The notes beneath the pieces were generated by a model. The model did no database searches, was not told the origin of the DNA, and saw only the letters and a list, made by a program, of their open reading frames with translations. This document shows positions 38,810-40,863 of a DNA stretch of 64,000 nucleotides, piece by piece. The stretch spans positions 34,403-98,402 of the forward strand of contig NZ_JWLC01000004.1 of assembly GCF_000813745.1 (NCBI RefSeq). Direction: 5' to 3'. This stretch comes from Leisingera sp. ANG-M1. GTDB lineage: Bacteria; Pseudomonadota; Alphaproteobacteria; Rhodobacterales; Rhodobacteraceae. Position 1 is the stretch's first letter. The number at the start of each line of letters is the position of its first letter. The translations under genes were made by a program, and so were the position numbers.

Positions 38810-39535
38810 TTGGAGTGGCGTGATCACGGCATATTGCTTTCGACGCGCCGCCATGGCGAGAATTCGGCGATCATCGATGTGTTCACCGAAACGCATGGCC
38901 GTCACGCGGGCGTGGTGCGCGGCGGAGCCGGCCGCAGGATGGCGCCGGTGCTGCAGCCGGGGGCACAGCTGGATCTCACCTGGCGGGCCCGCCTCGAAGA
39001 GCATCTGGGCAGTTATGAGGCCGAACTGCTGCGCAGCAGGGCAGCGGCGGCCTTGTCCGGCCGGCTGGCGCTGGCGGGGCTCAACGCGGTGACGGCGCTG
39101 CTGGGTTTCTGCCTGCCGGAACGCGAACCGCACCCCGCGCTTTACCGCCGCAGCGAAAACCTGCTGGATCTCCTGGAGAACGCGGAGCTTTGGCCGCTTG
39201 CTTATCTGCGCTGGGAACTGGCGCTGCTGGAGGAATTGGGGTTCGGACTGGACTTCACGGCCTGCGCGGTGACTGGCCGCACCAGGGGCCTGGAGTTTGT
39301 GTCCCCCAAGTCGGGCCGGGCTGTTTCACGTGAAGGCGCAGGAGACTGGGCCGACCGGCTGCTTCCGCTGCCGCCGGTCATGCTGGGAGAAGGTGCTGCG
39401 GAAGACGCCGAGATTGCGCAGGCGCTGCGCACAACCGGCTATTTCCTGGAAACGCATCTGGCACCATCGCTGGGCAGCCGGCCGCTGCCGGAGGCGCGGG
39501 GGCGGTTTGCGGACCTGCTCAGCCGCCGCTCGTGA
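38810..39535 (+). CDS. recO: DNA repair protein RecO
   Basis: RecO works with RecF and RecR to load RecA on single-stranded gaps. The 241-residue protein has an N-terminal OB fold ([38 protein letters not shown]) and a helical C-terminal part. The zinc-binding cysteines of some RecO proteins are only partly present (one cysteine in [10 protein letters not shown]). The start is TTG 38810, with TGGGAGG upstream. Its 3' end overlaps the convergent lipoprotein gene by 17 bases. Confidence 0.9.
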
Positions 39536-39911
39536 ACAGCATTTCGCGTCCCTGGACATTGCTGAGGATCAAAACATTTCCGGAGACCTCGGCCAATGTC
39601 ATCTCTTGCAGTGCATGCAGGAAGGCCTGTTCGGCCTCCGGCTGCGGACAGCTGTCCTGAGCCGCCGCTATCGCACTGGCTTCAAACCAGGGGTAAGGCG
39701 CAGTTTGCTTGCCTTGAAACCGGCCGCAGGGCGCCTGGCCGGCAATGAGGCCTGGTGCGGGAAAGCGCAGGCTGGCGGCGGCAGGAAAGACTTTGCCGTC
39801 AATGCTGGAGAGGCGCCACAGTTTACCGGCTGCGCCATAGGCGGAGAGGGTTTCGTCACTGGTGCACGCACCGGTGAGCAGAAATGCGAGGATCCAGGCA
39901 GTGCGCGGCAT
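39519..39911 (-). CDS. META-domain lipoprotein
   Basis: This 130-residue protein starts with a lipoprotein signal ([16 protein letters not shown], lipidation at Cys16). The mature part matches the META/HslJ fold ([46 protein letters not shown] and [16 protein letters not shown]). Its function is unknown; relatives include HslJ. The ATG at 39909-39911 is chosen for the lipobox. Upstream is a weak AGGG. Between it and the SGNH lipoprotein gene lies a large folded element (39992-40177). Confidence 0.75.
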
Positions 39912-39991
39912 CGGCGGCCCTAGTTGCTGTAACACACGGCACTGTGGAAAGGGGCTGTGCCAATTGCAAGGCTGTGCCCGGAAAACGCCCT

Positions 39992-40177
39992 GGAAGCGCT
40001 CCCGCCCGTCGCAGCGGCATTGCAAATGCCGTGCTCCCGTTGGGCCGGGCGCCGCGCGATGCGCGGCGCGGGTGTTCCCGTTTCAAAGATCCGCTGCCGC
40101 GCCGTGCGCAGCACGGCGCCACGCCCAACGCTGGAGGCGCATTCCGTGAATGCGCCGGAGGGGGCGGGAGGGCTTCC
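39992..40177 (-). repeat. Multi-hairpin structured element
   Basis: Nested inverted repeats fill this interval. The outer arms 39992-40007 and 40162-40177 pair in 15 of 16 positions. A middle 8-bp pair, CGTTGGGC (40038-40045) and GCCCAACG (40123-40130), encloses two of four perfect hairpins with three-base loops: 40015-40031 (7 bp), 40049-40069 (9 bp), 40099-40119 (9 bp) and 40136-40156 (9 bp). It starts three bases after the stop of the SGNH gene, so it would be transcribed in that gene's 3' region and before the META lipoprotein gene. Confidence 0.75.
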
Positions 40178-40179
40178 CT

Positions 40180-40863
40180 TCAGTTGGTCTGGATGATCCC
40201 GGCCACCTTGCGGCCGATTTCGCTGCTGGCCTTGACTGAAGGGTGGATCATGTCGAGCGCGTGGTAGGAGCGGTCGCCGAACGGCACCATGTCCTTGAGC
40301 GACAGGAAGTAAATGCCTTCGTCCAGCGCCGCCAGCCGTTCGATGCGGGTCTCCAATTCGTTGCCTTCGTCGCGGCAATGCTCGATCAGTGAGCCCACGC
40401 CGGGGCTGCGCAGGTAACCGACATAGATCACCTTGGCACCGGTAGCGCGCAGATCCGACAGCATGCCCGGAATGGCGCCCTTGCGGCCGTCGCTGGAAAT
40501 CAGCTTGTCCATCTTGCGGTTGCAGGCAAAGCAGCCGCAGCCGAGCCAAAGGTCGTTGCCGCCGCCGTTCACGATGACCCAGTCCCATTTGCCAGGCCGG
40601 TACTGGTTGCGGATCTGCATTCCGGCCGCGGCAGAAACCGGCAGCTTGTAGATGACCCGTGCCGCTGAGACCGACCGGTCCACCACCGGCTCCTGCAGTT
40701 CCCGGGCCACGGTGTCCGCAATCGACTTGCCTGCCAGGCTATGCCAGGCCATCAGGGAATCCCCCATCGCCAGAATACGGGAAGGCTGCTCTGTCGGCAC
40801 AGCATCGCCGCAGGCCGAAAGCAGCATCAGAAACGGAAGCAGGAAGCAGCGCAGAATGGTCAT
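40180..40863 (-). CDS. SGNH/GDSL-type lipoprotein hydrolase
   Basis: This 227-residue protein has a lipobox (LLSAC, Cys18). The SGNH catalytic residues are Ser36 in AMGDSL, the GGGND block near residue 102, and an Asp-His pair in LDMIHPS. It may be an esterase or polysaccharide deacetylase. An unusual cysteine cluster at residues 109, 111 and 114 (GCGCFAC) follows the GGGND block and could bind a metal or form disulfides. It is followed by the multi-hairpin element and ATG 40861-40863 is the start. Confidence 0.82.
   Translation of the reverse strand: MTILRCFLLPFLMLLSACGDAVPTEQPSRILAMGDSLMAWHSLAGKSIADTVARELQEPVVDRSVSAARVIYKLPVSAAAGMQIRNQYRPGKWDWVIVNGGGNDLWLGCGCFACNRKMDKLISSDGRKGAIPGMLSDLRATGAKVIYVGYLRSPGVGSLIEHCRDEGNELETRIERLAALDEGIYFLSLKDMVPFGDRSYHALDMIHPSVKASSEIGRKVAGIIQTN

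Follow-up and report, generated by a model that had tools for sequence, protein, structure and literature searches.

A REP/BIME-like gene-end repeat of the Rhodobacteraceae with fixed boxes and nearly free hairpins

High-copy intergenic palindromes that stand in inverted groups at gene ends are known from Escherichia coli as REP/BIME sequences, according to the portions of PMC2817692 drawn on here, and the roles suggested for them in that paper and in PMC6379681, again as far as the excerpts go, include chromosome organisation, transcription termination and gyrase cleavage in BIME-2. In E. coli, BIME-2 elements contain more gyrase cleavage sites than expected (PMC6379681, excerpt). The closest described family to the repeat reported here is that of the CGTC-tagged REPs, found mostly in Alphaproteobacteria, which in the cited sections of Di Nocera et al. 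2013 (PMC3733652) are 20 to 40 bp long with a stem of 8 to 9 bp and a CGTC tag, apparently have no dedicated transposase, often form inverted dimers and lie near gene 3′ ends, mainly in convergent and co-directional gaps. The main text of that paper names none of Rhodobacter, Ruegeria, Silicibacter and Paracoccus, the main text of the RepRanger paper (PMC12306157) names none of Rhodobacter, Leisingera and Phaeobacter, and a search of open-licence papers for Leisingera or Roseobacter REPs and for both fixed strings of the repeat returned, as judged by titles, no description of the family.

The window analysed here is a stretch of 64,000 nucleotides from Leisingera sp. ANG-M1, whose genome comprises 5.37 Mb in 91 contigs. 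Positions 39992 to 40177 of the window form a 186-nt element, which a first-pass annotation had described as a single body of four hairpins inside two nested pairings. The pairing scheme proved exact when every pair was checked and lay beyond chance in shuffles: the outer arms (39992–40007 with 40162–40177) pair at 15 of 16 positions, the middle helix (40038–40045 with 40123–40130) has 8 bp, and all four hairpins are present. The single body did not stand, since profile and pattern matches resolved the element into two facing, inverted copies of one unit of about 75 nt with two hairpins each, in the order CTCCCGCC, hairpin 1, GTTGGGC, two variable bases (NN), hairpin 2. The parts of the element and its two neighbours are the following.

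39999–40069, plus strand: left unit (box, hairpin 1, box, hairpin 2); pattern match 39999–40045 (G000:C34:74401-74447), profile match 39998–40069
39999–40006, plus strand: first box of the left unit, CTCCCGCC; from sequence and pattern
40016–40030, plus strand: hairpin 1 of the left unit, 6 bp, loop GCA, perfect; pairs checked
40039–40045, plus strand: second box of the left unit, GTTGGGC; from sequence and pattern
40049–40069, plus strand: hairpin 2 of the left unit, 9 bp, loop GAT, perfect; pairs checked
40070–40098, no strand: spacer between the units; from sequence
40099–40170, minus strand: right unit, inverted, with the same four parts; pattern match 40123–40170 (G000:C34:74525-74572), profile match 40170–40099
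40099–40119, minus strand: hairpin 2 of the right unit, 9 bp, plus-strand loop GCA, perfect; pairs checked
40123–40129, minus strand: second box of the right unit, GTTGGGC; from sequence and pattern
40136–40156, minus strand: hairpin 1 of the right unit, 9 bp, plus-strand loop CGT, perfect; pairs checked
40163–40170, minus strand: first box of the right unit, CTCCCGCC, 9 nt behind the SGNH stop codon; from sequence, reading frame and pattern
40180–40863, minus strand: SGNH-type lipoprotein gene with the element at its 3′ end, a neighbour outside the repeat; reading frame and 22 relatives
39911 to 39519, minus strand: small lipoprotein-like reading frame, the next gene; start chosen within the frame 39519–40025

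We take the names SGNH-type lipoprotein and small lipoprotein-like from the first-pass annotation and from motifs presumed to be typical; the closest named relatives of the SGNH-type protein are from Leisingera species. The folding energy of the minus strand was −123.6 kcal/mol against a mean of −91.63 (sd 4.21) for shuffled sequences, and that of the plus strand −127.5 against −97.26, with 0 of 200 shuffles as low in either case. At minimum energy the two central hairpins pair together as one long arm, and this fold competes with the arrangement in four hairpins. Pairing of the outer arms and of the middle helix follows from the boxes CTCCCGCC and GTTGGGC belonging to inverted copies, and since these parts hardly vary among relatives they supply almost no covariation evidence.

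We aligned the window locus in nine rows, with synteny established by the SGNH match for four of them (L060, L064, L068 and L069) and orthology of the four whole-genome rows taken from the sequence of both units plus flank. Pairing was retained in 91.1% of 494 cells, and the covariation score was reached by 0 of 500 shuffles and fell when the register was slid; the number of pairs with double changes, eight, was unremarkable, as 135 of 500 shuffles reached it. At several positions of the outermost 6-bp extension, pairing was found in a minority of rows. Among 11 named relatives from the Leisingera group, the two-unit form is present in L060, L064 (with one central hairpin cut), L068 and L069, partial forms occur in L059, L066 and L067, and the element is missing or reduced to a box-like trace in L061, L062, L063 and L065. 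Being reduced or missing in 7 of the 11, it is not essential at this locus.

Many further copies, which the first-pass annotation had proposed to look for, were found in the ANG-M1 genome and in related ones. We searched with a box pattern (CTCCCGYC, 28 to 50 free bases, GTTGGGC), using the reversed pattern as a control, and obtained 125 matches in the ANG-M1 genome against 4 for the control. All 21 genomes of the genus Leisingera contained 40 to 125 matches (controls 0 to 5). A nucleotide search with the whole element gave at least 50 matches among those listed for the ANG-M1 genome (40 of 148 candidates scored); it also hit all 21 Leisingera genomes and none of 20 others, four of which belong to the same family. 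The box pattern matched at least once in 87 of 248 Rhodobacteraceae genomes (the 248 include two Leisingera), in many of them at control level. Among the 246 from other genera, 17 had more than 10 matches, up to 147, and at least 159 had few or none, which makes the distribution patchy. The 285 genomes from other families in a class sample of 289 Alphaproteobacteria had only 0 to 3 matches each. Within the genomes sampled, the repeat family is thus abundant only in the Rhodobacteraceae, where its distribution is uneven. Twenty stretches of two other genera, chosen for their matches, contained 25 units, of which 21 had hairpin 1 and 20 had hairpin 2; with a gene finder trained on the ANG-M1 genome, a stop codon faced the first box in 18 of the 23 units with an upstream gene call, in 8 cases within 50 nt.

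The anatomy of the unit was determined on 123 units of the ANG-M1 genome, most of them from stretches chosen for matches; the sameness of the boxes in this set is imposed by the pattern, and it is the excess over the control that constitutes the finding. The insert between the boxes has a median length of 33 nt (quartiles 32 and 34), and all 123 insert sequences are distinct, with a median identity of 38% over 1454 pairs of the same length. GTTGGGC is followed by two variable bases, then by GGC in 110 of 123 units and then by hairpin 2. Both hairpins are present in 112 of the 125 matches of this genome. RNAalifold applied to 45 units recovered hairpin 2 and a box pairing and missed hairpin 1, because stems do not align by sequence. 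A candidate inverted partner was found within the next 230 nt for 61 of 123 units, compared to 7 and 4 in two control stretches.

Three kinds of unusual copy were seen. At G246:C3:300259-300305 and G278:C2:403622-403667 the boxes flank a perfect terminator-like hairpin with an A run and a T run and no base to spare, as if the box frame could take a terminator instead of hairpin 1; each of these genomes has only one or two matches, and chance is possible. In L190, the orthologue of the unit at G000:C10:138870-138916 has lost hairpin 1, reads CTCCCGCC-CGCG-GTTGGGC and keeps hairpin 2. Near G000:C13 192425 and G000:C18 194932, runs of N start inside hairpin 2, in 2 of 123 units, as though the assembly had been broken there by strong hairpins.

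Placement relative to genes was scored with a purpose-made, codon-based gene finder, which at the window locus overlooked the small lipoprotein gene and scored the gap as convergent, both neighbours actually being on the minus strand. By its calls, 69 of 112 elements lie in convergent gaps, 36 in co-directional gaps, 5 in divergent gaps, 2 at edges and none inside a called gene, while the gaps of at least 100 nt available numbered 98 convergent, 208 co-directional and 119 divergent. Seventy-two units lack a close inverted partner, two of them at edges; in 59 of the remaining 70 the stop codon of the upstream gene faces the first box, compared to a background of 456 of 950 gene ends (P = 1.5×10−9). 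Of these 59, 48 lie within 50 nt of the stop codon (median of the 59, 20 nt), and the 11 single units that face a gene start are all at least 58 nt away from it. For paired units a stop codon faces the first box in 41 of 51 cases, 27 of them within 50 nt.

With many intergenic copies, a palindromic structure, inverted pairs, a position behind genes and avoidance of divergent gaps, the unit resembles REP/BIME sequences in the broad sense, and its classification as a lineage-specific, REP/BIME-like gene-end repeat is well supported. It departs from the narrower definition, a short unit of about 14 to 40 nt with one common stem, in being about 75 nt long with two hairpins and inserts of 38% median identity. 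Neither a common stem sequence, nor a link to a RAYT, nor a GTAG-type tag of the kind described in the cited passages on E. coli REP/BIME was found; GTAG or CTAC occurs anywhere in only 2 of 123 whole units. As in BOX and Correia-type elements, which are composite, high-copy intergenic palindromes of other sequence and other hosts, the unit is composite, intergenic, palindromic and abundant, going by that general description. Integron attC sites have a GTTRRRY core with an RYYYAAC partner and keep their structure while their sequence varies; GTTGGGC fits GTTRRRY, and the unit likewise keeps structure over sequence. We rejected an attC identity, as RYYYAAC precedes GTTGGGC in 0 of 123 units and the boxes of inverted pairs face the other way. 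CGTC REPs, going by the sections of PMC3733652 cited above, share with the unit the palindromic form, inverted pairing, apparent absence of a dedicated transposase, location at gene 3′ ends and types of gap, but the unit differs from them in its length of about 75 nt, its two hairpins, its two fixed boxes and its almost freely variable stems. The insert starts with CGTC, TGTC or CCTC in 35 of 123 units of the ANG-M1 genome and in 27 of 123 from nine other genera, CGTC being the commonest start. As a CGTC-type tag occurs in only 35 of 123 units, we do not claim membership of that family; kinship with it, the closest described, is possible.

The first-pass annotation had called for a check of covariation at each stem, and comparison of orthologous sites supplied it. 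When both flanks of an ANG-M1 unit were found in a second species (G015), the unit was still there in 53 of 56 cases, a figure obtained with G015 stretches chosen for units and with 67 of 123 units lacking a two-flank match. In ANG-M1 stretches not chosen for units, 11 of 13 sites were common to both species, with 66 of 79 G015 units lacking a two-flank match there; at one of the two sites scored as absent the unit is present with a changed second box. These shared sites support the fixed boxes independently of the pattern search. We then considered 54 orthologous unit pairs (G000 vs G015) matched by their 5′ flanks at 72–91% identity. Of 35 double changes in hairpin 1, 27 left a standard pair (24 Watson-Crick, 3 G-U), 19 of which are Watson-Crick in both species, and double changes in hairpin 2 kept pairing in 18 of 21. 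Controls with the partner slid by one or two bases, pooled, gave 34 of 69 for hairpin 1 and 13 of 29 for hairpin 2 (P = 0.007 and 0.004), and the definition of the stems from one of the two genomes somewhat favours the true register. Unpaired insert positions differed between orthologues at 171 of 681.

REPINs and RAYT-mobilised REPs also form inverted pairs of a palindromic unit, as the consulted part of PMC2817692 describes them, but the present repeat differs in its mostly shared sites between species and in the want of a Y1 link. The ANG-M1 genome gave no match to the Y1 (RAYT) transposase; 6 of 21 Leisingera genomes did, as did three each of 15 unit-rich and 15 unit-free genomes, the unit-rich set being 15 of the 17 genomes with more than 10 matches and Y1 the one family tested. 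The linked RAYT-type transposase that had been suggested is thus absent from the ANG-M1 genome and shows no association with the repeat across 30 genomes, and a RAYT-mobilised repeat was rejected. The earlier idea of a mobile palindromic element, REP- or MITE-like, holds as regards repetition, palindromic form and REP-like character, but finds no support as regards present mobility in the genus, where 11 of 13 sites are shared with a second species. Copy number and near-identical copies in G109 indicate that past spread is likely. In that genome, identical inserts lie far apart (G109:C1:577492 and G109:C1:829934) along with several close variants, which suggests that one subfamily has spread recently there, in contrast to Leisingera. 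The Y1 genes of G003, G004, G006, G009, G010 and G016 are not linked to the repeat; several are in 152-aa frames, presumably as in IS200-like elements. A phage origin was also rejected, both hairpins being present, by a weak criterion, in 3 of 79 matches examined (80 listed loci of at least 120 stretches) vs 112 of 125 in the ANG-M1 genome.

If the stems were selected as RNA, G-U should be favoured over A-C among their mismatches on the sense strand. Terminator-like hairpins of the same genome behave as RNA should (26 G-U and 8 A-C in 93 hairpins), and the other hairpins of the same 3′ regions without a T tail, units included, have 108 G-U and 67 A-C (475 hairpins). By contrast, the sense strand carries 7 G-U and 63 A-C in hairpin 1 (202 units), 14 and 19 in hairpin 2 (200 units), 7 and 30 in nine other genera (100 of 123 inserts), and 11 and 19 among one-sided changes between orthologues (P = 0.002). 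The register test counted only Watson-Crick pairs as matches and treated G-U and A-C alike. The mismatch positions of hairpin 1 are rich in C and poor in G, a composition that by itself accounts for most of the A-C excess, so only the weaker conclusion is drawn that there is no sign of selection on a sense RNA fold, and the excess is set aside as a signal from the complementary strand in the main reading. The absence of a G-U excess speaks, indirectly, against selection on an mRNA fold. Nor is the unit an intrinsic terminator: the T fraction behind hairpin 2 is 0.21 in 69 single and 0.05 in 52 paired units against a background of 0.18, and intrinsic-like terminators follow 23 of 63 units and 55 of 185 convergent 3′ ends, about equal frequencies that make units and terminators not mutually exclusive. 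No Rfam family reached its gathering score in the window; the seven sub-threshold matches around the element, the best of which scores 26.8 bits where the gathering score is 150, are read as chance.

We tentatively favour, as the foremost of several candidates, a REP/BIME-like DNA boundary element at gene ends that probably recruits a host DNA-binding protein such as gyrase. The hairpin fold would be used as DNA rather than mRNA, and a host protein would read the fixed boxes, gyrase being the first candidate by analogy with BIME-2 only. The effect would be to keep neighbouring, often convergent, transcription units apart, and the enzyme that once spread the copies would since have disappeared or have escaped recognition. 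The orientation toward the upstream gene is equally predicted by an RNA or transcription-linked role. The most serious competitor, though a doubtful one, is an element of the 3′ untranslated region, in which hairpins 1 and 2 of the sense transcript, behind the stop codon, would confer stability, processing or protein binding. It would explain why 59 of 70 single units are sense-oriented behind stop codons and why double changes keep pairing, and the units may well be transcribed, since terminators are about as frequent behind them as elsewhere; it is opposed by the missing G-U excess in both hairpins, in orthologue changes and in nine genera, unlike in terminator-like hairpins, and by the lack of an Rfam family at the gathering score. 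The structured RNA once proposed for the SGNH 3′ region keeps its place, the element adjoining that 3′ end, but its role as RNA is disfavoured. A little less probable again is a decayed REPIN- or MITE-like mobile element that spread in the past and now drifts and is lost without function. High copy number, inverted pairs, patchy distribution, the near-identical copies in G109 and the losses at the window locus in several relatives all accord with decay; double changes that keep the stems, boxes kept at 53 of 56 and 11 of 13 sites though unpaired inserts differ at 171 of 681 positions, and the absence of a Y1 transposase link do not.

Two further explanations were considered. In the first, which we regard as improbable, the fold would form on the strand complementary to the gene and block backward entry of transcription or of another single-strand process. 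On that strand hairpin 1 has 63 G-U and 7 A-C mismatches, the nine other genera have 30 and 7, and positions near the loop have 9 and 2, and adjacency to stop codons, the preference for convergent gaps and the inverted pairs would fit one guard per gene. But the skew is mostly what the C-rich, G-poor mismatch positions predict, and hairpin 2 has little asymmetry (19 G-U and 14 A-C on that strand). If true, such a guard would represent a new class, with selection acting on fixed hinge boxes and on a constant geometry and leaving the sequence of the hairpins free. It would account for the orientation, the convergent preference, the inverted pairs and the sense-strand lack of G-U. The other explanation, which we consider very improbable, is that template switching that corrects imperfect palindromes, and not selection, produced the double changes. 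Near-perfect Watson-Crick stems with few G-U intermediates would be expected from it, but the double changes in hairpin 1 do not occur in runs (1 adjacent, 1.4 expected), those in hairpin 2 do so weakly (3 adjacent; expected 1.3 within hairpins, P = 0.11, and 0.5 across hairpins, P = 0.013), and fixed boxes, insert length and placement are left unexplained.

The family turns a familiar arrangement around: what usually identifies REP-like repeats is a stem sequence that they have in common, and here it is the boxes that are fixed and the hairpins that are nearly free. Searches by sequence similarity miss such a family for this reason: the nucleotide search hit none of 20 genomes from outside the genus, only four of them from the same family, compared to 17 of 246 genomes of other genera in the family with more than 10 matches by the box pattern. 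With many natural double changes, mostly kept sites and no recognised mobilising enzyme, the repeat makes an old question, whether palindromes at gene ends act as DNA, as RNA or as neither, directly testable.
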